A stretch of 64,000 bases of DNA from Pseudooceanicola sediminis (GTDB lineage Bacteria > Pseudomonadota > Alphaproteobacteria > Rhodobacterales > Rhodobacteraceae), in NCBI RefSeq assembly GCF_003575965.1, contig NZ_QWJJ01000005.1, forward strand, positions 124,001 through 188,000, written 5' to 3'. The stretch's first letter is position 1. Each line of letters opens with the position of its first letter. Below are positions 22,526 to 41,916 of the stretch, piece by piece. A model generated the notes under the pieces. The model saw nothing but the letters and a program-made list of their open reading frames with translations. It was not told the DNA's origin and did no database searches. Made by a program: the position numbers and the translations under genes.

Positions 22526-23308
22526 TCAGACGGTGCGTTCGACCATCATCTGCTTGATCGACGAAATCGCCTTGGCCGGGTTCAGACCCTTGGGGCAGGT
22601 CTTGGCGCAGTTCATGATCGTGTGGCAGCGATACAGCTTGAACGGGTCTTCCAGCTGGTCCAGACGCTCGGGTGTTGCCTCGTCGCGGCTGTCGATGATC
22701 CAGCGATAGGCATGCAGCAAGGCGGCCGGGCCGAGGTAACGATCGCCGTTCCACCAGTAGCTGGGGCACGACGTCGAGCAGGAGGCGCACATCACGCACT
22801 CATACAGACCGTCGAGTTTCTTGCGATCCTCGATCGACTGGCGCCATTCATTGGCCGGGCGGTTCGTCTTGGTTTCAAGCCATGGCATGATGCTGGCGTG
22901 CTGGGCGTAAAAGTGCGTCAGGTCCGGGATCAGGTCGCGCACCACGGGCATGTGGGGCAGCGGATAGATCTTGACGACCTTCGACTTGACCTCGTCCAGA
23001 CCAAAGATGCAGGCCAGCGTGTTGCCGCCATCGATGTTCATCGCACAGGAGCCGCAGATGCCTTCGCGGCACGACCGGCGGAAGGTCAGCGTCGGATCGA
23101 TCTCGTTCTTGATCTTGATCAGCGCGTCCAGAACCATCGGGCCGCACTTGTCCATGTCCAGGAAGTACGTGTCGATGGTCGGGTTTTCGTCGTCATCCGG
23201 GCTCCAGCGATAGATCTGGAACTTGCGAACGTTGGTGGCACCCTCGGGTTTCGGCCAGGTCTTGCCGGTCTTCATCCGTGAGTTCTTGGGGAGCGTCAGT
23301 TGTACCAT
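22526..23308 (-). CDS. sdhB: Succinate dehydrogenase iron-sulfur subunit
   Basis: Predicted 260-residue iron-sulfur subunit of complex II. The [2Fe-2S] ligands are in CREGICGSC, then NTLAC; the [4Fe-4S] and [3Fe-4S] ligands are in [16 protein letters not shown] and [17 protein letters not shown]. The Trp of SYWWNGD lies at the quinone site in known structures. Its ribosome site TAAGGAGG overlaps the sdhA stop codon, so it is directly coupled to sdhA. It is the last gene of sdhCDAB and ends at a strong terminator. Confidence 0.98.
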
Positions 23309-23318
23309 GTCGTCCTCC

Positions 23319-25124
23319 TTAGAACGTCCGCGCCTTGGGCGCGATTTTCTTCAGCGAGATGCCACCCTGGTCTTCGGTGGTCAGCGGATCGAGGATGACG
23401 GGGCGATAGGTCAGGTCGACCTTGTTGCCGTCAACGCGGCTGATCGTGTGGACGCGCCAGTTTTCGTCGTCACGTTCCGAATAATCCTCGTGCGCGTGGG
23501 CGCCGCGGGATTCGTGGCGCGCCTCGGCCCCGACGATGGTCGCCATGGCGTTCGGCATCAGGTTGGTCAGCTCCAGCGTTTCCATCAGGTCGCTGTTCCA
23601 GACCAGGCTGCGGTCGGTGACGTGCAGATCGGGGATCTTGGCCGCGATCTCGGTCATCTTCTCGACCCCCTCTTTCAGCGACTCGGAGGCGCGGAACACG
23701 GCGGCGTCGGACTGCATGGTCTTCTGCATTTCCAGGCGCAGCTCGGCTGTCGGCGTCCCGCCCTTGGCATTGCGGAAATAGTCGAACCGGTCGAAGGCCT
23801 TGTCGATCGATGCCTGGTTCGGCACGGCCACCGGTGCGGCCCGGTCGACAACCTTGCCGGCGCGGATCGCGGCGGCGCGGCCAAAGACCACGAGGTCGAT
23901 CAGCGAGTTGGAGCCGAGGCGGTTGGCCCCGTGAACGGATGCGCAGCCTGCTTCGCCCACGGCCATCAGGCCGGGCACGACCTGCGTCGGGTTGTCCGCT
24001 GTCGGGTTCAGCACTTCGCCGAAGTAGTTCGTCGGAATGCCGCCCATGTTGTAGTGCACCGTCGGCAGAACCGGGATCGGCTCCTTGGTCACATCGACGC
24101 CGGCAAAGATCTTGGCCGATTCCGAGATACCCGGCAGACGTTCCGCCAGCGCCTCGGCGGGCAGGTGCGCCAGGTTCAGGTGAATGTGGTCGCCATGTTC
24201 ACCGACACCACGGCCTTCGCGGATTTCCATGGTCATGGAGCGCGAAACGTAGTCACGCGGCGCGAGGTCCTTGTACTGGGGCGCATACCGCTCCATGAAC
24301 CGTTCGCCTTCGGAGTTGGTCAGGTAGCCACCTTCGCCGCGCGCGCCCTCGGTGATCAGGCAGCCGGAGCCGTAGATCCCGGTGGGGTGGAACTGGACGA
24401 ACTCCATGTCCTGCAGCGCCAGGCCCGCGCGGGCCACCATACCACCGCCGTCGCCGGTGCAGGTATGGGCCGAGGTCGCGCTGAAGAAGGCGCGTCCATA
24501 GCCGCCGGTGGCCAGAACGACCATCTTGGCGTTGAAGATGTGCATCGTGCCGTCGTCAAGCTTCCAGCAGACAACGCCCTGGCATTGCCCGTCTTCGGAC
24601 ATGATCAGGTCGATGGCGAAATATTCGATGTAGAACTCGGCGTTGTTCTTCAGCGACTGGCCATAGAGCGTGTGCAGGATCGCGTGCCCGGTGCGGTCAG
24701 CCGCCGCACAGGTGCGTTGCACGGCAGGGCCTTCGCCGAATTCGGTGGTGTGACCGCCGAAGGGGCGCTGGTAGATCTTGCCCTCTTCCGTGCGGCTGAA
24801 CGGCACGCCGTAATGCTCAAGCTCGTAAACGGCCTTGGGGGCTTCGCGGGCGAGGTATTCCATCGCATCCGTGTCGCCCAGCCAGTCGGACCCCTTGACG
24901 GTGTCGTACATGTGCCACTGCCAATTGTCCGGGCCCATGTTCGACAGAGAGGCGGCGATGCCGCCCTGCGCCGCAACAGTGTGCGAGCGGGTCGGGAAAA
25001 CCTTGGTCACGCAGGCCGTCCGCAGCCCCTGTTCGGCCATGCCGAGGGTCGCGCGCAGACCTGCGCCACCGGCCCCAACCACGACCACGTCATATTCGTG
25101 TGTTTCGTATTCGTAAGCAGCCAT
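23319..25124 (-). CDS. sdhA: Succinate dehydrogenase flavoprotein subunit
   Basis: Predicted 601-residue FAD subunit of complex II, oxidising succinate to fumarate. GAGGAG at residues 17-22 binds FAD, and His48 in [10 protein letters not shown] is the covalent FAD attachment site by homology. HPTGIYGSG and RLGSNSL, then a [11 protein letters not shown] segment near the C terminus, are conserved active-site and FAD-contact motifs. Length is typical. It lies between sdhD (15 bp) and sdhB (10 bp) in one operon. Confidence 0.98.
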
Positions 25125-25139
25125 AGGGAACCTCGGGTC

Positions 25140-25511
25140 TTAAAGGGCGAGCCGGATCAGCGAGAAGACGCCAACAGCGGCAATGGCGTAGGCCAGGCAG
25201 GAAACCAGGATGATGGTGATGCGGCCGGTCAGCCCATGCACGTAATCCTCGATCGCCATCTGGGCGCCGTTCTTGAAATGCATCATGCCAACGCTGAGCG
25301 TCAGGGCCGCCACGATGGCAGGCCAGGGATGCGAGTAATAGGCGATGATCTCTTCGTAGGTGCCGCCAAGGGCGGGACCGAAGGTGAAGACGAACAGCGG
25401 CACCAGGATGATCAGGGCAATCGAGCTGACCTGCATGGACCAATGGTGTTCGGTCCCGGTCTTGGATGCACCCATGCCCACGGCGCGCTTGCGGTCGGTC
25501 AGATAACGCAT
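25140..25511 (-). CDS. sdhD: Succinate dehydrogenase membrane anchor subunit
   Basis: Predicted 123-residue membrane anchor of complex II with three hydrophobic segments (about 28-48, 60-80, 96-120). The motif HFKNGAQMAIEDYVHG matches the conserved SdhD helix that contacts haem b and quinone. Start ATG 25511 leaves 14 bp to the sdhC stop, where AGAGAGGT gives a ribosome site. Second gene of the operon. Confidence 0.93.
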   Translation of the reverse strand: MRYLTDRKRAVGMGASKTGTEHHWSMQVSSIALIILVPLFVFTFGPALGGTYEEIIAYYSHPWPAIVAALTLSVGMMHFKNGAQMAIEDYVHGLTGRITIILVSCLAYAIAAVGVFSLIRLAL

Positions 25512-25525
25512 GCTGGCTACCTCTC

Positions 25526-25915
25526 TCAGACGAAGATGATTGTGATGATGGTCAGAATGACCGAGCCGATCAGCATGCCCCAGCCCAGCTTGTCCGACGT
25601 CTCCATGTCGAGGCAGTAGCCGTTGTCCCAGAGCAGGTGCCGCACACCCGCAAGGGCGTGATACCAGAGGCCCAGCGTTGAGAAGAGCAGGATGATGTCG
25701 CCGATCCACGATGTGATCACGAAGTCGGCGGTCGCGAAATACTCGGGGCCCGTGGCGGCGGCCATCAGCCACCATGCGATCAGAAATGCCTCCACCACCA
25801 GCGCGTTGCCGGTGATCCGCGTCAGGATCGACGTGACGGAATTCAGCTGGAAGCGATAATCCTTCCCAAGTACGAATGGAGAGAGCGGGCGGTTGCCCCG
25901 GTTGACGTCGGCCAT
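25526..25915 (-). CDS. sdhC: Succinate dehydrogenase cytochrome b556 subunit
   Basis: Predicted 129-residue membrane subunit. RPLSPFVL and the SVTSILTRITG start are typical of SdhC, followed by three membrane helices. HALAGVRHLLWDNGY includes the conserved His haem ligand region. ATG 25915 has AAAGGA six bases upstream; the frame continues 35 codons further without support. First gene of sdhCDAB. A double TGTGATCACA palindrome lies about 120-150 bp upstream (26033-26065). Confidence 0.94.
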   Translation of the reverse strand: MADVNRGNRPLSPFVLGKDYRFQLNSVTSILTRITGNALVVEAFLIAWWLMAAATGPEYFATADFVITSWIGDIILLFSTLGLWYHALAGVRHLLWDNGYCLDMETSDKLGWGMLIGSVILTIITIIFV

Positions 25916-26032
25916 CACATGTCCTTTCCGGATTCCCTTGGGCCCGTGTTTTACCAGACAATAGCGCTTTGTCATCCGCGCACCATGCCGCAGTAGGCAG
26001 AATTTGACACAAGCAACCATTTCTTTTTGCCT

Positions 26033-26065
26033 TTGTGATCACAAGAAATAATGCTGTGATCACAA
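26033..26065 (-). promoter_or_regulatory. Paired TGTGATCACA operators upstream of sdhC
   Basis: TTGTGATCACAA (26033-26044, perfect 12-bp palindrome) and CTGTGATCACAA (26054-26065, 11 of 12) have centres exactly 21 bp apart, two helical turns. The pair is about 134 bp upstream of the sdhC start. The same pair with the same spacing occurs before sucC (31106-31138). Some GntR- or CRP-like regulators recognise related sequences, but the protein is unknown. Confidence 0.75.
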
Positions 26066-26192
26066 AATGAGCGATAATTTTGCCCTGCTATATCTGACTG
26101 ATTTGGTGGGTTTTTGCGGTTGATTCTGCGCTGCGCGGGCCGCCCCCACCGGCATCTCCTGCCCCGCACCCAAGGGCGCGGACGGGTAATTC

Positions 26193-27224
26193 CTACAACG
26201 GAATCAACGCCCAGTAGTCAAGGTCGAGCAAGACGTGAGGCAGATAGCGGCCATCCTCGGCCTTTCGGGTGAACGCCTCACCGCCGCTGCGGGCGACCAG
26301 CCGCAGCCGGATCGCGCCGATCCCCGGCGCCGCCGTTTCCGCCTTGTCCAGCACCTCGGACCACGCATGCACCGTGGTGCCCGCAAAGCACGGGTTGGCA
26401 TGTGCCCCGCCGTTCAGGCCGACAACCATCTGCGCATTGGCCAGCCCGTTGAACGACAGCCCCCGCGCAAGAGAGATGACGTGCCCGCCATAGATCAGCC
26501 GCTGCCCATCCGGGCGCACCGTTGCATCGAAATGCACCTTGGAGGTGTTCTGCCAAAGGCGTGTGGCCATCATGTGCTCGGCCTGCTCGATCGTCACGCC
26601 GTCAACGTGATCGATCTGCTCGCCAATCTCGTAGTCGCCCCAGCGGTGCGCCTCGCCTGCCAGCGTGAAATCATAGCTGCTGAAATCCAGCCCCACCGGG
26701 ATCACCAGATCGGCGGGCGCAATGGCATCGGCCAGCGCGGGAACCACCGGCGCGGGGGCCGGGGCCTGTGGGTCACGCTTTTTCACCATCACCCAGCGGC
26801 AATAGCTCATCACGACCTCATCGCGCTGATTCAGCCCTTCGGACCGGACGTAGACCACACCGGTCTTGCCGCTGGAGTTCTCCTTCAGGCCGATCACGGT
26901 CGACCGGGCGCGCAGGGTGTCGCCGGGATAGACCGGCTGCAGCCAGCGGCCCTCTGCATATCCCAGGTTCGCCACCGCATTCAGGGAGATATCGGGAACG
27001 GTCTTGCCGAACACGATATGGAACGCCGCCAGATCATCCAACGGCGATCCGGCCAGACCGCACCCGCGCGCGAAGGCATCCGAGGAATACAGCGCGTGAC
27101 GCGCCGGGTAGAGCGCATGATACAGCGCCCGTTCCCCCGACGTGACGGTGCGCGGCACCGCATGCTGGATCTGCTGACCCAGGGTGTAATCCTCGAAGAA
27201 GCGGCCGGGATTGGTCTTGGCCAT
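26193..27224 (-). CDS. mch: Mesaconyl-CoA hydratase (beta-methylmalyl-CoA dehydratase)
   Basis: Predicted 343-residue double-hotdog MaoC-type hydratase converting mesaconyl-C1-CoA to beta-methylmalyl-CoA, a late step of the ethylmalonyl-CoA pathway. First MaoC half about residues 8-155 (FFEDYTLGQQIQHAVPRTVTSGE), second about 190-340 (RWGDYEIGEQIDHVDGVTIEQAEHMMATRLWQNT is one conserved run, of which the Mch-type EQAEHM and RLWQNTSKVH are diagnostic). Its ATG overlaps the DUF1737 stop (TGATG). It ends the mcl2-nnrU-DUF1737-mch operon. The context with mcl2, ccr and ecm is decisive for the specific call. Confidence 0.94.
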   Translation of the reverse strand: MAKTNPGRFFEDYTLGQQIQHAVPRTVTSGERALYHALYPARHALYSSDAFARGCGLAGSPLDDLAAFHIVFGKTVPDISLNAVANLGYAEGRWLQPVYPGDTLRARSTVIGLKENSSGKTGVVYVRSEGLNQRDEVVMSYCRWVMVKKRDPQAPAPAPVVPALADAIAPADLVIPVGLDFSSYDFTLAGEAHRWGDYEIGEQIDHVDGVTIEQAEHMMATRLWQNTSKVHFDATVRPDGQRLIYGGHVISLARGLSFNGLANAQMVVGLNGGAHANPCFAGTTVHAWSEVLDKAETAAPGIGAIRLRLVARSGGEAFTRKAEDGRYLPHVLLDLDYWALIPL

Positions 27225-29653: not shown

Positions 29654-30932
<1,279 letters not shown>

Positions 30933-30954
30933 GGCCTGCCTCAGAAGTAATGAC

Positions 30955-30980
30955 AAAAAGGCGCCTTCGGGCGCCTTTTT
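30955..30980 (+). terminator. mdh terminator
   Basis: Stem GGCGCC (30960-30965) and GGCGCC (30970-30975) with a TTCG tetraloop, flanked by five A's and five T's that lengthen the stem to 11 bp. Confidence 0.9.
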
Positions 30981-31105
30981 GCGTGGGCAGACCTGTTCCG
31001 TGCCACGCGGCGTCTAGCGGCAGGATGACTGTGCATGTGCGTCCCAGGCCCGCCCGAGTCGTCCCGCTGCCCTGTTTCCACACATTTTCGTCCCGCCACC
31101 ATGTT

Positions 31106-31138
31106 TTGTGATCACAGCTTTTTTGCGTGTGATCACAA
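31106..31138 (+). promoter_or_regulatory. Paired TGTGATCACA operators upstream of sucC
   Basis: TTGTGATCACAG (31106-31117) and GTGTGATCACAA (31127-31138) share the perfect 10-bp core TGTGATCACA, with centres exactly 21 bp apart, about 125 bp upstream of the sucC start. Spacing and distance match the sdhC pair (26033-26065), which suggests one regulator for both TCA operons. Confidence 0.75.
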
Positions 31139-31246
31139 AACACCCCAAATCGGCGAAAATTGTCCGTTCAACGAAAAAATGAGTTCATTGCACCGTAAGA
31201 CTGTGCCAGTACCGATGCCAATCGTAGCAAACGAGGGACGGAGTTC

Positions 31247-32440
31247 ATGAATATCCATGAATATCAGGCGAAGGCTATTCTTCGCGAATACGGCGCCCCG
31301 GTTTCGGATGGTCGTCCGGTCACCAAGGCCGACGAAGCCAAAACCGCCGCCGGCGAACTGGACGGCCCGCTCTGGGTCGTGAAGGCACAAATCCACGCAG
31401 GTGGTCGCGGCAAGGGGTCCTTCAAGGAATCCGACGCCGGTGAAAAGGGCGGCGTGCGCCTGGCCAAGTCGGTCGAGGAAGCCGCTGAGGAAGCCAAGAA
31501 GATGCTTGGCCGCACCCTCGTGACCCACCAGACCGGCCCCGCCGGCAAGCAGGTCAACCGCATCTACATCGAAGACGGTTCGGATATCGAGCGTGAGCTC
31601 TATCTGGCGCTTCTGGTCGATCGTCAGACCAGCGCGATTTCCTTCGTCTGCTCGACCGAGGGCGGCATGGACATCGAGGAGGTTGCGGCCTCCACCCCCG
31701 ACAAGATCCTGTCGTTCTCCGTCGACCCGACCACCGGCTACCAGCCGTTCCACGGTCGCCGCGTCGCCTTCGCCCTCGGGTTCGAAGGCCAGCTGGTCAA
31801 GCAGTGCGTCAAGCTGATGGGTCAGCTCTACAAGGCCTTCGTCGAGAAGGACATGGAGATGCTGGAGATCAACCCGCTGATCGTCATGCCCGGCGGCAAC
31901 CTCAAGGTGCTGGACGCCAAGGTCAGCTTTGACGGCAACGCCATGTATCGCCACGGCGACATCGCCGCGCTGCGCGACGAAACCGAGGAAGACCCGAAAG
32001 AGCTGGCAGCGTCGAAATACGACCTGAACTACATCGCGCTCGACGGTGAAATCGGCTGCATGGTGAACGGCGCAGGCCTGGCCATGGCGACGATGGACAT
32101 CATCAAGCTCTACGGCGCCGAGCCGGCAAACTTCCTCGACGTTGGTGGCGGCGCCACCAAGGAGAAAGTGACCGAAGCGTTCAAGATCATCACCTCTGAC
32201 CCCAACGTCAAAGGCATCCTGGTCAACATCTTCGGCGGCATCATGCGCTGCGACGTCATTGCCGAAGGCGTCATCGCCGCGGTCAAGGAAGTCGGCCTGC
32301 AGGTTCCCCTTGTCGTCCGCCTCGAAGGCACCAATGTCGAAAAGGGCAAGGAGATCATCGCGACCTCCGGTCTGAACGTCATTGCCGCCGACAACCTGTC
32401 GGACGGTGCCGAGAAAATCGTGAAAGCAGTGAAGGGCTAA
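31247..32440 (+). CDS. sucC: Succinyl-CoA synthetase beta subunit (ADP-forming)
   Basis: Predicted 397-residue ATP-grasp subunit of succinate-CoA ligase. [19 protein letters not shown] is the standard start; [14 protein letters not shown] is the nucleotide-binding loop; LEINPLI carries a metal ligand; [15 protein letters not shown] and [10 protein letters not shown] contact the alpha subunit and phosphohistidine. Length typical. It starts the suc operon under the paired operators and is separated from sucD by 5 bp. Confidence 0.98.
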
Positions 32441-32445
32441 GAACC

Positions 32446-33327
32446 ATGGCAGTTCTCGTCGACGAAAACACCAAGGTGATCTGTCAGGGCTTCACCGGCT
32501 CGCAGGGCACCTTCCACTCCGAACAGGCCATCGCCTACGGCACCAAGATGGTTGGCGGCGTCACGCCCGGCAAAGGGGGCCAGTCCCACCTGAACCTGCC
32601 GGTGTTCGACAGCGTGCACGAAGCAAAGGACGTCACCGACGCCAATGCGTCTGTCATCTACGTGCCGCCCCCCTTCGCCGCCGACTCGATCCTCGAAGCG
32701 ATCGACGCCGAGATGGAGCTGATCATCTGCATCACCGAGGGCATTCCCGTGCTCGACATGATGAAGGTCAAGGCTGCGCTGAAGAATTCCAAATCGCGCC
32801 TGATCGGTCCGAACTGCCCCGGCGTCATCACGCCGGACGCCTGCAAGATCGGCATCATGCCCGGCCACATCCACAAACGTGGCTCGGTCGGTGTCGTGTC
32901 GCGCTCGGGCACGCTGACGTACGAGGCGGTCAAGCAGACGTCGGATGCGGGCCTCGGCCAGTCGTCCGCGGTCGGTATTGGTGGCGACCCCATCAAAGGC
33001 AGCGAACATATCGACATCCTCGAAATGTTCCTGGCGGACCCCGAAACGCAGTCGATCATCATGATCGGTGAAATCGGTGGCTCGGCCGAAGAAGAAGCCG
33101 CGCAATTCCTGGCCGACGAAAAGAAGAAAGGCCGCTGGAAACCCACGGCTGGCTTCATCGCGGGCCGGACCGCCCCTGCGGGCCGTCGCATGGGCCATGC
33201 CGGCGCCATCGTCGCCGGTGGCAAAGGCGGCGCGGAAGACAAGATCGAAGCGATGAAATCCGCTGGTATCGTTGTTGCCGACAGCCCTGCGGGCCTCGGC
33301 GAAGCCGTCCTGAAAGCGATCGGCTGA
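32446..33327 (+). CDS. sucD: Succinyl-CoA synthetase alpha subunit
   Basis: Predicted 293-residue alpha subunit binding CoA and carrying the phosphohistidine. [15 protein letters not shown] is the CoA-binding loop, GPNCPGVI and [13 protein letters not shown] are conserved, and the His in [10 protein letters not shown] is phosphorylated. It follows sucC by 5 bp. After it come 297 bp with a 12-bp hairpin before the DUF805 gene. Confidence 0.98.
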
Positions 33328-34393: not shown

Positions 34394-37354
34394 ATGACCG
34401 AACAAAGCCCGAATGACCTTTTCCATGCGTCCAGCTTCATGCAGGGCCACAATGCCGAATACCTTGAACAGCTTCAGGCCCGCTGGGCCGCCGACCCGTC
34501 GTCGGTCGATGAAGGCTGGGCCGATTTCTTCCGCCAGCTGGAAGTGACCGAAGGCGATGCCCGCGCCGAGGCGGCAGGCCCGTCCTGGGCGCGCACCGAC
34601 TGGCCGCCGACCCCGAACGACGACCTGACCGCGGCGCTGGACGGCATGTGGCCGGTCCCCGCCGAGGCCAAGGATGCCGGCAAGAAGATCAAGGAAAAGG
34701 CTGCGGAAAAGGGCATTTCCGTGTCGGACGAAGCGGTCAAGCGCGCCGTGCTGGATTCGATCCGGGCGCTGATGATCATCCGCGCCTACCGCATCCGCGG
34801 GCACCTGATCGCAGATCTGGACCCGCTGCGCATGCAGGACCAGAACCAGCATCCGGAACTGGACCCCAAGACCTACGGCTTTACCGACGCCGACATGGAC
34901 CGGCCGATCTTCATCGACAACGTCCTGGGCCTGCGTATCGCCTCGATGCGCCAGATCCTCGACATCGTGAAGCGTACCTATTGCGGCACTTTCGCGCTGC
35001 AATACATGCACATTTCCGACCCCGAACAATCCGCCTGGCTGAAAGAGCGGATCGAAGGCTTCGGCAAGGAAATCACCTTCACCCGCGAAGGCCGCCGTGC
35101 CATCCTGAACAAGCTGGTCGAGGCCGAGGGCTTTGAAAAGTTCTGCCACGTCAAGTTCATGGGCACCAAGCGTTTCGGCCTGGACGGTGGCGAGGCGTTG
35201 ATCCCCGCGATGGAGCAGATCATCAAGCGGGGCGGCAACCTGGGCGTCAAGGAAGTCGTCATCGGCATGCCGCACCGTGGGCGCCTGTCGGTGCTGGCCA
35301 ATGTCATGGGCAAACCCTATCGCGCGATCTTTAACGAATTCCAGGGCGGGTCGTACAAACCCGAGGATGTCGATGGATCGGGCGATGTCAAATATCACCT
35401 CGGCGCGTCATCCGATCGTGAATTCGATGGCAACACCGTCCACCTGTCGCTGACCGCCAACCCCTCTCACCTCGAGGCGGTGAACCCGGTCGTTCTGGGC
35501 AAGGCCCGCGCCAAGCAGGCGCAGCTGAACGACCCGGACCGCACCAGCGTGATCCCGATCCTGCTGCACGGCGATGCGGCCTTTGCCGGCCAGGGCGTCG
35601 TCGCGGAATGCTTCGGCCTGTCGGGCCTGGTCGGTCACCGCACCGGCGGCACGATCCATATCGTCGTGAACAACCAGATCGGCTTTACCACCGCGCCGCA
35701 TTTCTCGCGCTCCTCGCCCTATCCGACCGACATCGCCCTGATGGTCGAGGCCCCGATCTTTCACGTCAACGGCGACGACCCCGAGGCCGTGGTGCACGCC
35801 GCCAAGGTCGCGACCGAGTACCGCCAGAAGTTCCACAAGGACGTCGTCATCGACATCTTCTGTTATCGCCGTTTCGGCCATAACGAAGGCGACGAGCCGA
35901 TGTTCACCAACCCGATCATGTACAAGAACATCAAGGGTCACCGCACGACCCTGTCGCTCTATACCGACCGGCTGATCAAGGACGGCCTGATCCCCGAGGG
36001 CGAGATCGAGGACATGAAGGCCGCGTTCCAGTCCCACCTGAACGGCGAATTCGAAGCCGCCAAGGATTTCAAACCCAACAAGGCCGATTGGCTGGACGGG
36101 CGCTGGTCCGGCTTTGACCGCGAAAAGGAAGAATACCAGCGCGGCGAGACAGCGATCAGCGAAGAAACCATGAAAGAGGTGGGCGACGCTCTGACCCGCG
36201 CACCCGAAGGGTTCCCGCTGCACCGCACCGTCGAACGCCTGCTGGAATCCAAGGCCAAGATGTTCGACACCGGCGAAGGCTTCGACTGGGCAACCGGCGA
36301 GGCGCTGGCCTTCGGCTCCCTCGTGACCGAGGGCTATCCGGTGCGCCTGTCGGGCCAGGATTCGACCCGCGGCACCTTCAGCCAGCGCCACTCGGGCCTG
36401 ATCAACCAGGAAACCGAAGAGCGGTACTATCCGCTGAATAACATCAAGGCGGGCCAGTCGCGTTACGAGGTCATCGACTCGATGCTCTCCGAATACGCGG
36501 TGCTCGGGTTCGAATACGGCTATACCCTGGCCGAACCCAATGCCCTGGTGATGTGGGAAGCGCAGTTCGGCGATTTCGCCAATGGTGCGCAGATCATGTT
36601 CGACCAGTTTATCTCCTCGGGCGAGGCGAAATGGCTGCGCATGTCCGGCCTCGTGATGCTGCTGCCGCACGGCTACGAAGGCCAGGGCCCCGAGCACTCC
36701 TCGGCGCGCCTGGAACGCTTCCTGACGATGTGTGGCCAGGACAACTGGATCGTCGCCAACTGCTCCACCCCGGCGAACTATTTCCACATCCTGCGCCGCC
36801 AGATGCACCGGTCCTTCCGCAAGCCGCTGGTGCTGATGACACCGAAATCGCTGCTGCGTCACAAGATGGCCGTCAGCAAGGCGTCTGATTTCACCACCGG
36901 GTCCAGCTTCCACCGGATCCTGTGGGATGACGCCCAGCAGGGCAATTCCGAGACGCAGCTGGTTGCGGACGACAAGATCAAGCGCGTCGTCATGTGCTCC
37001 GGCAAGGTCTACTACGACCTGCTTGAGGAACGCGACGCCCGCGGCATCACCGACGTCTACCTGATGCGCGTCGAACAGTTCTATCCCTTCCCCGCCATCA
37101 CCATGGTAAAGGAGTTGGAGCGCTTCAAGACTGCCGAAGTCGTCTGGTGCCAGGAAGAACCCAAGAACCAGGGCGCCTGGACGTTCATCGAACCCAACAT
37201 CGAATGGGTTCTGGGCCGCATCGGTTCCAAATCCCAGCGTCCGCGCTACGTCGGACGTCAGGCCGCCGCCGCCCCCGCCACGGGTCTCGCAGCCCAGCAC
37301 AAAGCACAGCAAGCCGCGCTCGTTGACGAAGCGCTGACCATCGAAGGAAACTAA
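34394..37354 (+). CDS. sucA: 2-oxoglutarate dehydrogenase E1 component
   Basis: Predicted 986-residue thiamine-diphosphate decarboxylase of the 2-oxoglutarate dehydrogenase complex. The N-terminal segment NDLFHASSFMQGHNAEYLEQ binds the complex core. MPHRGRLSVLANVMGKPY, the long HLSLTANPSHLEAVNPV region, HGDAAFAGQGVVAE, NNQIGFTT and GDDPEAVV form the ThDP and Mg2+ site. The C-terminal pyrimidine domain follows (LSGQDSTRGTFSQRHS). Length typical of E1o (930-990). The 253 bp before it hold no gene I can support. It is followed 6 bp later by sucB. Confidence 0.98.
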   Translation: MTEQSPNDLFHASSFMQGHNAEYLEQLQARWAADPSSVDEGWADFFRQLEVTEGDARAEAAGPSWARTDWPPTPNDDLTAALDGMWPVPAEAKDAGKKIKEKAAEKGISVSDEAVKRAVLDSIRALMIIRAYRIRGHLIADLDPLRMQDQNQHPELDPKTYGFTDADMDRPIFIDNVLGLRIASMRQILDIVKRTYCGTFALQYMHISDPEQSAWLKERIEGFGKEITFTREGRRAILNKLVEAEGFEKFCHVKFMGTKRFGLDGGEALIPAMEQIIKRGGNLGVKEVVIGMPHRGRLSVLANVMGKPYRAIFNEFQGGSYKPEDVDGSGDVKYHLGASSDREFDGNTVHLSLTANPSHLEAVNPVVLGKARAKQAQLNDPDRTSVIPILLHGDAAFAGQGVVAECFGLSGLVGHRTGGTIHIVVNNQIGFTTAPHFSRSSPYPTDIALMVEAPIFHVNGDDPEAVVHAAKVATEYRQKFHKDVVIDIFCYRRFGHNEGDEPMFTNPIMYKNIKGHRTTLSLYTDRLIKDGLIPEGEIEDMKAAFQSHLNGEFEAAKDFKPNKADWLDGRWSGFDREKEEYQRGETAISEETMKEVGDALTRAPEGFPLHRTVERLLESKAKMFDTGEGFDWATGEALAFGSLVTEGYPVRLSGQDSTRGTFSQRHSGLINQETEERYYPLNNIKAGQSRYEVIDSMLSEYAVLGFEYGYTLAEPNALVMWEAQFGDFANGAQIMFDQFISSGEAKWLRMSGLVMLLPHGYEGQGPEHSSARLERFLTMCGQDNWIVANCSTPANYFHILRRQMHRSFRKPLVLMTPKSLLRHKMAVSKASDFTTGSSFHRILWDDAQQGNSETQLVADDKIKRVVMCSGKVYYDLLEERDARGITDVYLMRVEQFYPFPAITMVKELERFKTAEVVWCQEEPKNQGAWTFIEPNIEWVLGRIGSKSQRPRYVGRQAAAAPATGLAAQHKAQQAALVDEALTIEGN

Positions 37355-37360
37355 GGACCA

Positions 37361-38893
37361 ATGAGCACCGAAATCCGAGTCCCCACCCTGGGCGAAAGCG
37401 TGACCGAAGCCACCGTCGCGACCTGGTTCAAGAAGCCCGGCGATAGCGTGGCCGTTGATGAAATGCTGTGCGAGCTGGAAACCGACAAGGTGACCGTCGA
37501 AGTGCCCGCCTCCGTCGCGGGCGTGCTGTCCGAAATCGTCGCCAAGGAAGGCGATACGGTCGGCGTCGACGCCCTGCTCGGCAACATCGCCGAAGAAGGC
37601 AACGCCGGCCCGGAAGAGACCAAGCCCAAGGCCTCCGCCCAGGCCGAGGAGTCCTCCGACAGCGCCCCCGCCGCCGCTGACAAGGGCGAAACCGTGGCCG
37701 TCATGGTCCCGACGCTTGGCGAATCCGTCTCCGAAGCGACCGTGGCCACCTGGTTCAAGAAAGAGGGCGACAGCGTCACCGCTGACGAAATGCTCTGCGA
37801 ACTGGAAACCGACAAGGTCTCGGTCGAAGTCCCCGCCCCCGCCTCGGGTGTGCTGACCAAGATCATGGCCGCCGAAGGCACCACCGTCGAAGCCGGTGGC
37901 CAGCTGGCCGAGATGTCCTCGGGCGACGGCGCCGCGGCCGCACCCAAATCGGACGCCCCGAAAGCCGACGACAAAGCCCCGGCACCCGCCGCCAGCTCGG
38001 GCAAGGACGTCGAGGACGCGCCCTCGGCGAAAAAGGCGATGGCCGAAGCGGGTCTTTCCCGTGACCAGGTCAGCGGCTCGGGCAAGGACGGCCGCATCAT
38101 GAAGGACGATGTCGCCAAGGCCCTGTCTGCCGCAAAATCCGCTCCGGCCCCGGCTTCTGCCGCGCCGCGCGCACCCGTCGCCGCCGACGATGCCGCCCGC
38201 GAGGAACGCGTGAAGATGACGCGCCTGCGTCAGACCATCGCGCGCCGCCTGAAAGAGGCGCAGAACACCGCCGCCATGCTGACGACCTACAACGAGGTCG
38301 ACATGACCGAGGTCATGGCCCTGCGCAGCCAGTACAAGGACATGTTCGAAAAGAAGCACGGCGTGCGTCTCGGCTTCATGTCCTTCTTCACCAAGGCCTG
38401 CGTGCATGCGCTGAAGGAAGTGCCGGACGTCAACGCCGAAATCGACGGCACCGACGTGGTCTACAAGAACTTCGTCCACATGGGCGTCGCGGCGGGTACG
38501 CCCCAGGGCCTCGTCGTGCCGGTGATCCGTGACGTCGACCAGATGTCCTTTGCCGACATCGAAAAGGCGATTGCCGAAAAGGGCAAGCGCGCCCGGGACG
38601 GCAAGCTGTCGATGGCGGAAATGCAGGGCGGCACCTTCACCATCTCCAACGGTGGTGTCTACGGCTCGCTCATGTCCTCGCCCATCCTGAACCCGCCGCA
38701 GTCCGGCATCCTCGGCATGCACAAGATCCAGGACCGCCCGATGGCGATCAACGGCAAGGTCGAAATCCGCCCGATGATGTACCTCGCGCTGTCCTACGAT
38801 CACCGCATCGTCGACGGCAAGGGCGCCGTGACCTTCCTCGTCCGCGTCAAGGAAGCGCTGGAAGATCCCCGTCGCCTGCTGATGGACCTGTAA
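37361..38893 (+). CDS. sucB: Dihydrolipoyl succinyltransferase (E2) with two lipoyl domains
   Basis: Predicted 510-residue E2 of the 2-oxoglutarate dehydrogenase complex. It has two lipoyl domains, at residues about 3-77 and 111-186, each with the lipoylated Lys in ETDKV (Lys43 and Lys152). Ala/Pro-rich linkers, an E3-binding domain (about 222-260, [12 protein letters not shown]) and the catalytic domain (about 275-510) follow, with His481 and Asp485 in SYDHRIVDG. Most bacterial E2o proteins have one lipoyl domain. I recall two in Rhodobacter relatives, so this is likely a lineage trait. Coupled to sucA. Confidence 0.97.
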
Positions 38894-38902
38894 AGACAGA
38901 CC

Positions 38903-38925
38903 GGCCGGCCCCCAGCGGGCCGGCC
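38903..38925 (+). terminator. Hairpin after sucB
   Basis: A perfect 9-bp stem (GGCCGGCCC 38903-38911 with GGGCCGGCC 38917-38925) and a 5-nt loop, followed by CCCCCTT rather than a T tract. It may slow exonucleases or terminate partially, allowing read-through toward lpd. Confidence 0.45.
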
Positions 38926-39354
38926 CCCCTTGCCCGGGTCGGACATCGGCACATCGCACCTCCCCCATGTCCCGCCCGATGCCAAATGACCCGCACGCAC
39001 CCGCCCGACCGCACCCGCCCGCACAGCCCCAGCCTGCCCAGCCCCAGCCTGCAAGGCACCAGCCCGCAAAGCCCGGCGGCCCGCGCCGCCCGAGAGATCC
39101 CGGCCCATGTTCCACAGCGCCCCCTCACGCCCCGACAGGCCTGCCGCAGATGCCGCACGCCCGGCCGCGCCTGGCAACCTGCGGTCCCACCCTGCCGAGA
39201 GCCCGGGGCTGTCGCATGACCCTGCCCCCCTCAACGCCAGCCTCTCAACGCCAGCCCCTCAACGGTGGAAACATCCGCCCGCGACGTTACCTTCCCTGTC
39301 GACCGCTCCAAGGACGTCGCCTAACATGACGCTATCAGACAGGAAGGCTCACCC
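38926..39354. other. Cytosine-rich spacer between sucB and the next small gene
   Basis: About 430 bp, very C-rich on the plus strand, with short repeats of CCCGCACAG and CCCCAGCCTGC (about 38990-39060). Its open frames are Pro/Ala/Arg-rich composition artefacts. I see no promoter. Confidence 0.4.
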
Positions 39355-39588
39355 ATGACCAGGCAACTGCTTCTGCGCCACGACAGTTTCGACCAGGCCG
39401 CCCATGACGCGGGCGCCGAAGACCGCGCCGCCGCCGGTCTGACCCAGCTCCAGCTCTGGCGCGACGACACCGGTGGCCACTGGGCCCTGTTCTCGGTGAA
39501 CGACGCGACGCGGGCAAAGGCCTGGCTCGACAAGGCCGCATCCCTCGGACACGCCCCGTCAGAGCATCACTTCCTGGAGACGCTATGA
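39355..39588 (+). CDS. Small protein of unknown function in the suc-lpd interval
   Basis: Predicted 77-residue soluble protein (MTRQLLLRHDSFDQAAHDAG, LQLWRDDTGGHWALFSVND, KAWLDKAASLGH). An alpha-beta fold is plausible. Its last codons overlap the start of the first MAPEG gene (ATGA at 39585-39588), so it is translationally coupled to it. No family recognised. Confidence 0.75.
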   Translation: MTRQLLLRHDSFDQAAHDAGAEDRAAAGLTQLQLWRDDTGGHWALFSVNDATRAKAWLDKAASLGHAPSEHHFLETL

Positions 39589-39974
39589 CTCCCGAACTCA
39601 TCGCCCTCGCGCTCGTCGTCCTGCTCCATGTGGTCCTCATCGGCCTGTCGCAAGCCTATTTCAACCGCGATGTCGGACCCGAGGCCAATGCCTCGCCCCG
39701 CGATGACCTGCCGCCCCTCTCCACCGCCACGCAGCGCCTGCGCCGCGCGCTGTCCAATCACACCGAAAACTTCGGCCCCTTCATCGCCGCCGTGGTCATC
39801 GTCACGCTCTCGGGCCAGGCCAGTACCTTCACCGCGATCTGCGGCTTTGTCTATGTCGCGGCCCGTGCCCTCTACATCCCGGCCTATCTCTACGGCTGGG
39901 CTCCCTGGCGCTCGCTGATCTACACGCTCGGCCTCGCCGCCACCCTCGCCATGATCATCGCGGCGTTCGTCTGA
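39585..39974 (+). CDS. MAPEG family membrane protein 1
   Basis: Predicted 129-residue four-helix membrane protein of the MAPEG family (glutathione S-transferase/eicosanoid-type). [19 protein letters not shown] and [19 protein letters not shown] are the family's conserved loop and helix. It overlaps the previous gene by 4 bp and the next by 1 bp (TGATG), forming a tight three-gene unit. Substrate unknown. Confidence 0.88.
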
Positions 39975-40384
39975 TGCCGAACGAACTCCAGATCCTCGCC
40001 CTCGCGGGCCTGCTCCAGGTGCTGCAGATCATCCTGATGGCCGTGCCGGCCAATCTCGAACTCGGGCGCGGCAAGACCACCTCGCCCCGCGATCCCGGGC
40101 GCATGGAAAAACCGCTGATGGATCAGGTCAGCCCGGTCACGGGCCGCCTCTACCGCGCCATGAACAACCACTTCGAAGGGCTGATCCTGTTCACCATCGC
40201 GGTCCTCACCGTCTCCCTGCTCGACGCCTCCACCCCGCTCACCCGCGCCTGCGCCGCGCTCTACCTCGCGGCCCGCATCCTCTACATCCCCGCCTATGCC
40301 TTTGGCTGGGTGCCCTGGCGCAGCCTGATCTGGCTCGCAGGCCTCACCGCGACCACGCTCATGCTGATCACCGCCCTGCTCTGA
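39974..40384 (+). CDS. MAPEG family membrane protein 2
   Basis: Predicted 136-residue MAPEG protein, a diverged neighbour of the previous one: [20 protein letters not shown] and [19 protein letters not shown] match its conserved parts. The two may form a hetero-oligomer, since MAPEG enzymes are trimers. A hairpin-rich repeat element and the 11-bp repeat array follow before lpd. Confidence 0.88.
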
Positions 40385-40397
40385 TCCGTTTCCCTGT

Positions 40398-40448
40398 TCC
40401 AAATATCCCGGGGGGAGTCAGCCACAGGCTGACGGGGGCAGCGCCCCC
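40398..40448. repeat. Composite hairpin element (REP-like)
   Basis: TTCCAAATATCCCGGGGGGA is followed by two perfect hairpins: GTCAGCC/GGCTGAC (40417-40433, 3-nt loop) and GGGGGC/GCCCCC (40434-40448, 3-nt loop). I recall similar composites after many Rhodobacteraceae genes. The first part resembles, in reverse, the element at 9204-9222. Confidence 0.6.
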
Positions 40449-40462
40449 TCCCGGACCGCCCA

Positions 40463-40495
40463 GAAACCGTTCCAATACCGACGTGATACCGACGC
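40463..40495 (+). repeat. GATACCG repeat with 11-bp period (locus 2)
   Basis: Three 11-bp units (GAAACCGTTCC, AATACCGACGT, GATACCGACGC) start at 40463, 40474 and 40485. An exact 18-mer is shared with locus 1 (3399-3442, opposite strand). It lies after the second MAPEG gene and 27 bp before lpd. Confidence 0.75.
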
Positions 40496-40521
40496 CGGAA
40501 ACCGACCCGAAGGAGACCCAA

Positions 40522-41916
40522 ATGGCCCAATACGATGTCATCGTGATCGGTGCAGGCCCCGGCGGCTATGTCGCCGCCATCCGCTGCGCCCAGCTCGGCC
40601 TGAAAACCGCCTGCGTGGAGGGGCGTGAAACCCTCGGCGGCACCTGCCTCAACGTGGGGTGCATCCCCTCCAAGGCGCTGCTGCATGCCACCCACCAGCT
40701 GCACGAAGCCGAACACAACTTCGCCACGATGGGCCTCAAGGGCAAATCCCCCTCGGTCGACTGGCCGACGATGCAGGATTACAAGCAGTCCGTCGTCGAC
40801 TCCAACACCAAGGGCATCGAATTCCTGTTCAAGAAGAACAAGATCGACTGGATCAAGGGCTGGGGGTCGATCCCCGAGGCCGGCAAGGTGAAAGTCGGTG
40901 ACGACACCCACGACGCCAAGAACATCATCGTCGCCTCCGGCTCCGTCCCCTCGTCCCTGCCCGGTCTCGACGTCGACAACGACGCTGGCGTGGTGGTCGA
41001 TTCCACCGGTGCGCTGTCGCTGCCCAAGGTGCCGAAAAAGATGATCGTCGTCGGCGCCGGTGTCATCGGCCTCGAAATGGGCTCCGTCTACGCCCGCCTC
41101 GGCACCGAGGTCACGGTGATCGAATTCCTCGACCAGATCACCCCCGGCATGGATGGCGAAGTCCAGAAGACCTTCCAGAAAATGCTCAAGAAACAGGGCA
41201 TGGAGTTCATCATGGGCGCCGCCGTGCAAGGCGCCGAAGCGACCAAGTCCAAGGCCAAGCTGACCTACAAGCTGCGCAAGGACGACAGCGAACACCAGCT
41301 CGACGCCGATGTCGTTCTGGTCGCCACGGGGCGTCGTGCCTTCACCGACGGCCTTGGCCTCAAGGATCTCGGGGTCGAGATGACCGAGCGCGGACAGGTC
41401 AAGACCGACGATCACTGGGCCACCAACATCAAGGGCGTCTATGCCATCGGTGACGCGATCATCGGCCCGATGCTGGCCCACAAGGCCGAGGACGAAGGCA
41501 TGGCCGTGGCCGAGGTCATCGCGGGCAAGGCCGGGCACGTCAACTATGGCGTCATCCCCGGCGTCATCTACACCCACCCCGAGGTCGCATCGGTCGGCAA
41601 GACCGAAGAGCAGCTCAAGGACGAAGGCCGCGCCTACAAGGTCGGCAAGTTCTCCTTCATGGGCAACGCGCGCGCCAAGGCCGTCTTTGCCGGCGACGGC
41701 TTTGTCAAACTGCTGGCCGACAAGGAAACCGACCGTATCCTGGGGGCGCACATCATCGGCCCCGGCGCGGGCGACCTGATCCACGAGGTCTGCGTGACGA
41801 TGGAATACGGCGGCTCTGCCGAAGACCTTGCCCTGACCTGCCACGCACACCCGACCTTCTCCGAAGCGGTTCGCGAAGCGGCGCTGGCCTGCGGCGACGG
41901 CCCAATTCACATGTGA
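40522..41916 (+). CDS. lpdA: Dihydrolipoyl dehydrogenase (E3)
   Basis: Predicted 464-residue FAD/NAD disulfide oxidoreductase that reoxidises dihydrolipoyl groups of the 2-oxoglutarate dehydrogenase complex, and possibly others. GAGPGG at residues 10-15 binds FAD; the redox disulfide is Cys42 and Cys47 ([13 protein letters not shown]); [17 protein letters not shown] binds NAD; the catalytic His-Glu pair is in [13 protein letters not shown] 40522 with AAGGAGA upstream is clear; the frame extends 13 codons into the repeat array. Third enzyme of the complex after sucA and sucB. Confidence 0.97.

Follow-up and report, generated by a model that had tools for sequence, protein, structure and literature searches.

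Twin palindromes upstream of sdhC and sucC of Pseudooceanicola sediminis as predicted operators of an AkgR-like GntR regulator

Introduction

The AkgR regulon of Rhodobacter sphaeroides was reportedly described by Imam et al. in 2015, and AkgR is presumably the protein RSP_0981. This identification agrees with two papers (PMC6365646, PMC4344238). RSP_0981 belongs to the GntR family, and a network model of R. sphaeroides predicts that it controls the genes of succinyl-CoA synthetase, succinate dehydrogenase and 2-oxoglutarate dehydrogenase (PMC4344238). Price et al. call AkgR a transcriptional activator of R. sphaeroides; GTGATCAC is among its reported binding sites, and a gntR-like homolog shares this motif (PMC6365646).

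Two further regulators invite comparison. PS417_07240 of Pseudomonas simiae, a gntR-like gene in a deoxyribonate catabolism cluster, is 32% identical to AkgR, and its proposed binding site is a GTGATCAC ahead of its own gene; however, it serves another pathway and has one palindrome, located at -47 to -40 from its start codon (PMC6365646). Atu1419 of Agrobacterium fabrum, an FCD/VanR-type GntR protein, is a dimer of dimers in which each dimer binds a 10-bp palindrome, and its sites lie in and near its own promoter. In contrast to the system described here, its site is ATGTATACAT, the sites are 109 and 190 bp apart, it represses by looping, and the pathway is a different one (PMC7797058).

We analysed a stretch of 64,000 nucleotides of Pseudooceanicola sediminis, hereafter the window. 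The core motif GTGATCAC occurs in it upstream of the succinate dehydrogenase and succinyl-CoA synthetase genes, and a GntR-family gene with the same site is present in the genome. Regulator family, TCA targets and motif are thus those of the R. sphaeroides AkgR regulon, here in another genus, and on this match the sites are read, with high confidence, as predicted AkgR operators. The regulon is already in print, and the new detail may be the twin geometry across the family and the layout of the akgR promoter; both the 21-bp arrangement and the placing of the palindrome over the akgR core promoter come from our measurements on Pseudooceanicola and its relatives. Neither sites paired at 20-21 bp nor a palindrome in the akgR promoter were found in the literature searched, which did not include the main AkgR paper, and we do not claim that they are unpublished.

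Materials and Methods

The family sample consisted of 394 genomes from 393 genera, drawn evenly from a larger group. Pairs were searched as two GTGATCAC with 5-35 bp between the cores. All 75 places listed from 36 genomes were fetched and, together with the two of the window, gave 77 places for examination. SdhA, SdhB and SdhC served as queries when locating genes in relatives. The sucC leader set comprised 30 sequences, six of 36 having been dropped by length. The search outside the family covered 385 genomes; five of them belong to the family itself (four of these with a pair), and 380 were counted. The homologs of the regulator are the best 80 named of at least 506 confirmed (79-98% identity), labelled as Rhodobacteraceae and kin, with one Phyllobacteriaceae and two Alphaproteobacteria among them. 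The regulator loci L166-L195 overlap partly with the genomes of L086-L165, and counts are given for the 80 named loci.

Results and Discussion

Twin palindromes in the window

An earlier note on this DNA had described two palindromes before sdhC with centres 21 bp apart, about 134 bp upstream of the gene, and had reported the same arrangement at sucC but at no other place in the window. All of this holds: a scan for exact TGTGATCACA returns four copies, which make up the two pairs (Table 1), each with 21 bp between centres, and 134 bp separate the sdhC ATG from the midpoint of its pair (26049).

Table 1. Positions of the TCA genes, the palindromes and the predicted sdhC promoter in the window
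Feature	Position	Strand	Remarks
sdhD, sdhA, sdhB, remainder of the operon	22526..25511	-	from the ORF list
sdhC, first gene of sdhCDAB	25526..25915	-	start at 25915 chosen by us; the mechanical ORF is longer
Predicted sdhC core promoter, ATGACA-16-TAAAAC	25948..25975	-	-35 is 63 bp downstream of the proximal palindrome centre
Palindrome TTGTGATCACAA	26033..26044	.	sdhC-proximal predicted AkgR operator; core TGTGATCACA at 26034-26043
Palindrome CTGTGATCACAA	26054..26065	.	sdhC-distal predicted AkgR operator; core TGTGATCACA at 26055-26064
Palindrome TGTGATCACA	31107..31116	.	sucC-distal predicted AkgR operator
Palindrome TGTGATCACA	31128..31137	.	sucC-proximal predicted AkgR operator; 109 bp to the sucC ATG
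sucC and sucD, head of the suc genes	31247..33327	+	from the ORF list
sucA, sucB, lpd and small ORFs between them (2-oxoglutarate dehydrogenase complex)	34394..41916	+	from the ORF list

One further copy of TGTGATCACA, with one mismatch, lies within the sdhC coding region at 25712. When the window was shuffled 100 times, matches with at most one mismatch averaged 1.44, and the observed five were reached in two shuffles. The plain count is therefore only moderately unusual, and the case is carried by the twin layout and its conservation. The names sdhD, sdhA and sdhB are putative and rest on sequence features. The gene order sucC-sucD-sucA-sucB-lpd is kept in all three stretches inspected in relatives.

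Operators of the CRP/FNR type have the consensus TGTGA-N6-TCACA or TTGAT-N4-ATCAA; in all four palindromes of the window the half-sites abut with zero gap, and this class was rejected. CceR (RSP_1663) was also rejected at the pairs: its consensus, [AGT]GTT-N6-8-AAC[ACT] (PMC4344238), has no match in 25900-26200 or 30930-31260. Among the three upstream regions scanned, a match to the CceR consensus, TGTTGCCGCTAACA, was found at 29755-29768, about 200 bp before mdh, and Mdh is a predicted CceR target (PMC4344238).

The 4.44 Mb genome contains seven exact copies of TGTGATCACA, of which four make up the sdhC and sucC pairs. The fifth (C10:4066) precedes the ATG of a GntR gene by 8 bp. The sixth (C10:4547), 481 bp from the fifth, is inside a metallopeptidase-like ORF; it was rejected as a functional site and is probably due to chance, since only one of 79 named loci has any GTGATCAC at 100-1000 bp upstream of the regulator gene. 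The seventh (G000:C4:145193; L001, 1501-1510) is a single copy upstream of a transporter permease ORF, possibly a further target or a chance occurrence. The GTGATCAC core is common, with 205 copies, so that a lone core means little, but pairs are a different matter. Only two GTGATCAC pairs with 5-35 bp between cores exist in this genome, and both are in the window; they are also its exact 21-bp pairs (C41:150035 and C41:155108). Random occurrence across the genome, which the earlier note had named as grounds for giving up the proposal, was accordingly not seen, the only pairs being those of sdhC and sucC. The fumC locus of this genome has no GTGATCAC, and its sole 10-mer within two mismatches is found towards the distal end of that locus rather than ahead of the gene; fumC was therefore rejected as a target in this genome.

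Promoters and predicted mode of control

We hold it to be highly likely that the four palindromes are operators of an AkgR ortholog, paired dimers activating sdh and suc and a single site at akgR repressing. A single dimer would occupy each TGTGATCACA. The sdhC and sucC promoters would each carry a pair of adjacent dimers, separated by two turns of the helix and located some 85-120 bp ahead of the predicted start of transcription, and these would activate sdhCDAB and the suc genes jointly. At akgR, the single palindrome between the TTGAC -35 and the start codon, across the expected -10, would most likely serve self-repression. A TCA-related carboxylate is the putative ligand.

Generic sigma-70 scans gave no promoter at the sdh or the suc operon, and the sdhC promoter in Table 1 came from comparing relatives. 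In 24 of 33 sdhC leaders, a -35-like GTGAC follows the centre of the proximal palindrome at a distance of 61-64 bp, as against at most three in any of 40 windows over 1000 rounds of shuffled leaders. The sdhC leader of P. sediminis is among the nine without GTGAC there and has ATGACA-16-TAAAAC at 63 bp instead. Counted from the predicted sdhC start, the two palindromes would be centred at about -97 and -118, positions that suit an upstream activator.

The sucC promoter is less clear. The best candidate, a weak one, has its -35 about 49 bp from the proximal centre. Among the 30 sucC leaders, the 7-mer GTGCCAT is present in 12 (at most one mismatch), always at 69-71, and the 7-mer CGTTTAT in 12, of which 11 cluster near 49, both 7-mers being best-of-many picks. 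The distance from palindrome to -35 would thus be about 49 bp at sucC versus 62-63 bp at sdhC, and the difference of 13 bp, which is not a whole helical turn, speaks against our preferred explanation. Either the sucC promoter has been misassigned, or the helical face need not be strictly kept with respect to RNA polymerase.

Repression is common among GntR-family proteins, and the AkgR ortholog might bind the twin sites but mainly repress, or act in both directions by ligand, for example as a pre-formed tetramer bridging the palindromes. The related FCD regulator Atu1419, a dimer of dimers, is indeed a repressor (PMC7797058). However, we consider this reading unlikely, as the pair lies upstream of the conserved sdhC -35 and not across the promoter, and AkgR is called an activator (PMC6365646). 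The suggestion of the earlier note that the far-upstream position suits an activator gains from the same two points.

The predicted regulator

The candidate regulator gene, at G000:C10:3410-4057 on the minus strand (L002:845-1492), is the GntR gene behind the fifth TGTGATCACA copy and encodes 215 aa. The protein matches GntR PF00392 with 45.9 bits (cut-off 27) and FCD PF07729 with 64.6 bits (cut-off 24.3), and the N-terminal GntR helix-turn-helix followed by a C-terminal FCD domain places it in the FCD group of the GntR superfamily. Four NCBIfam models matched it, all below their cut-offs. Its closest named relative, among the best 80 of at least 506 confirmed, is from Pseudooceanicola spongiae (98%). 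FCD domains usually bear one D and three H as metal ligands. In the regulator, N136, H140, H183 and D205 are invariant in all 111 aligned sequences (some genomes being represented twice), and its metal site may differ from the usual one. McbR of E. coli is distant from the regulator in sequence and controls other genes; it is the best sequence match with a solved structure (PDB 4p9f; E 5e-20, residues 20-210). Judging from family, motif, targets and co-occurrence, the gene is very probably the ortholog of AkgR (RSP_0981), and is called akgR here. Three matches to the RpiR family in the P. sediminis genome were set aside, because AkgR is given as GntR in PMC6365646 and PMC4344238.

The palindrome in front of the gene is widely kept: GTGATCAC occurs within 100 bp of the start codon in 78 of the 80 named homologs (the best 80 of at least 506 confirmed). 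It begins exactly 18 bp after the start of TTGAC in 69 of these 78, and the start codon follows 9 bp after the palindrome in 35. A -10 element 16-17 bp after the TTGAC -35 would overlap the palindrome. With the palindrome over the expected -10 and the start codon close behind, the akgR mRNA may be leaderless and the site appears to be placed for self-repression.

The regulator was found at E<=1e-40 in 362 of the 394 family genomes, and at E<=1e-50 in none of the 380 genomes outside the family. Gene and pair occur together in 353 family genomes and are both missing from 24; eight have the pair only and nine the gene only (Fisher p 2e-24, a test which treats genera as independent though they are related). 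Five of the eight pair-only genomes are under 90% complete; the other three are at least 90% complete, and the eight count against the preferred explanation. As for the gene-only genomes, G054, G122, G281 and G338 have weaker regulator matches only (E 1e-46 to 1e-61), and G040, G291 and G344 carry, ahead of sucC or sdhC, a degenerate 21-bp pair that deviates at one or two bases, whereas G147 and G155 are accounted for by neither. No degenerate pair was seen beside a tested TCA gene in the genomes lacking gene and pair, in a partial check of one locus in each of the 29 genomes, out of 33, that had any match.

A further point against our explanation is that the regulator gene, on C10, is not near the TCA genes, on C41, in the P. 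sediminis genome. In three genomes, selected for having regulator and pair on one contig, the regulator gene is found 0.4-1.3 kb past lpd, where the suc genes end, and faces these genes.

A different protein of the same specificity, either another GntR member or a paralog, is quite improbable as the one that binds the twin sites. The GntR domain model has 38 matches in the P. sediminis genome at E<=0.001, 34 of them over the cut-off, a second match to the regulator, though a weaker one, is present in many family genomes, and outside the family a different GntR gene has a 21-bp pair just upstream (L196). However, the P. sediminis genome has a single regulator match at E<=1e-40, and, among the genes whose upstream regions were inspected, this one alone was found to have TGTGATCACA immediately ahead of its start; its site is retained in nearly all of the named homologs, and its presence tracks the pairs. 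The earlier note had proposed a single regulator for both TCA operons, and this is now well supported by conserved pairs at both, by a co-occurring GntR/FCD gene bearing the same palindrome in its own promoter, and by the prediction for RSP_0981 (PMC4344238).

Conservation of the pairs and their spacing

At least one GTGATCAC pair is present in 361 of the 394 family genomes, most often two, and among the fetched places the pairs are mostly before sdhC or sucC; absence from relatives, on which the earlier note would have dropped its proposal, is thus not the case. Sixty-nine of the 77 places precede sdhC or sucC, 63 with 21 bp and six with 20 bp between centres. All 71 places with a spacing of 20-21 bp precede a TCA-cycle gene (sdhC, sucC, sucA or fumC), and three-turn spacing was found at none of the 71, although the search range allowed it. 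A reversed-pattern control gave a pair in two of the 394 genomes; this control counts for little, since CTAG, a rare sequence in bacteria, is part of its pattern, and weight is placed instead on the fixed spacing and the fixed targets.

The recurrence of 20-21 bp at unrelated promoters, together with the lack of three-turn spacing, suggests that neighbouring dimers touch, with the limit that promoters of orthologous genes cannot be counted as independent cases. A tetramer is an alternative, as Atu1419 forms a dimer of dimers with one palindrome per dimer (PMC7797058); side-by-side dimers or a tetramer both fit the near-invariant spacing.

We give an even chance to a wider proposal, in which AkgR dimers, paired at a fixed distance of 20-21 bp, switch the TCA cycle throughout the family, and this cooperative arrangement recurs at sdhC, at sucC and in single cases at sucA and fumC. 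The same palindrome in the spacer/-10 of the probably leaderless akgR promoter would make AkgR a self-limiting activator, and the position and copy number of the palindrome would set the sign and the cooperativity of control. If position does set the sign, akgR, sdhC and sucC would offer a compact example of a protein that activates a central pathway and limits itself. In any event, a known but little studied regulator is assigned to predicted operators in hundreds of genera of a single family, to which abundant marine bacteria belong, and the geometry is precise enough to be tested with a few promoter mutants.

An origin of the palindromes by chance or from codon usage, without any part in regulation, has next to no probability, because, common as GTGATCAC is, and although five fetched places at 18, 27 or 31 bp adjoin none of the tested genes, this reading is already contradicted by a spacing of 20-21 bp and targets that stay fixed over many genera while spacers and flanks have diverged.

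Besides these five, the eight places that do not precede sdhC or sucC include three individual cases. In genome G177, where sucA directly follows mdh, a 21-bp pair (L251, sites 701 and 722) lies between the two genes and so stands at the head of the 2-oxoglutarate dehydrogenase genes. In genome G042, a 21-bp GTGATCAC pair (L242, sites 701 and 722) precedes a fumarase (fumC-like) gene, and it looks as if fumC had joined the regulon there. At L209 (G187 C1:3357949-3357969), two GTGATCAC cores 13 bp apart are found beside the regulator gene, which elsewhere has a single site. One family genome, G265, has 11 GTGATCAC pairs versus mostly two in the others.

Of the 380 genomes outside the family, two have an exact 21-bp pair. 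One 21-bp GTGATCAC pair in a genome of another family (L196, genome G539, 992-1020) is just upstream of a different GntR/FCD-like gene, which adjoins a TonB-receptor-like gene, and the motif is therefore not exclusive to one protein.
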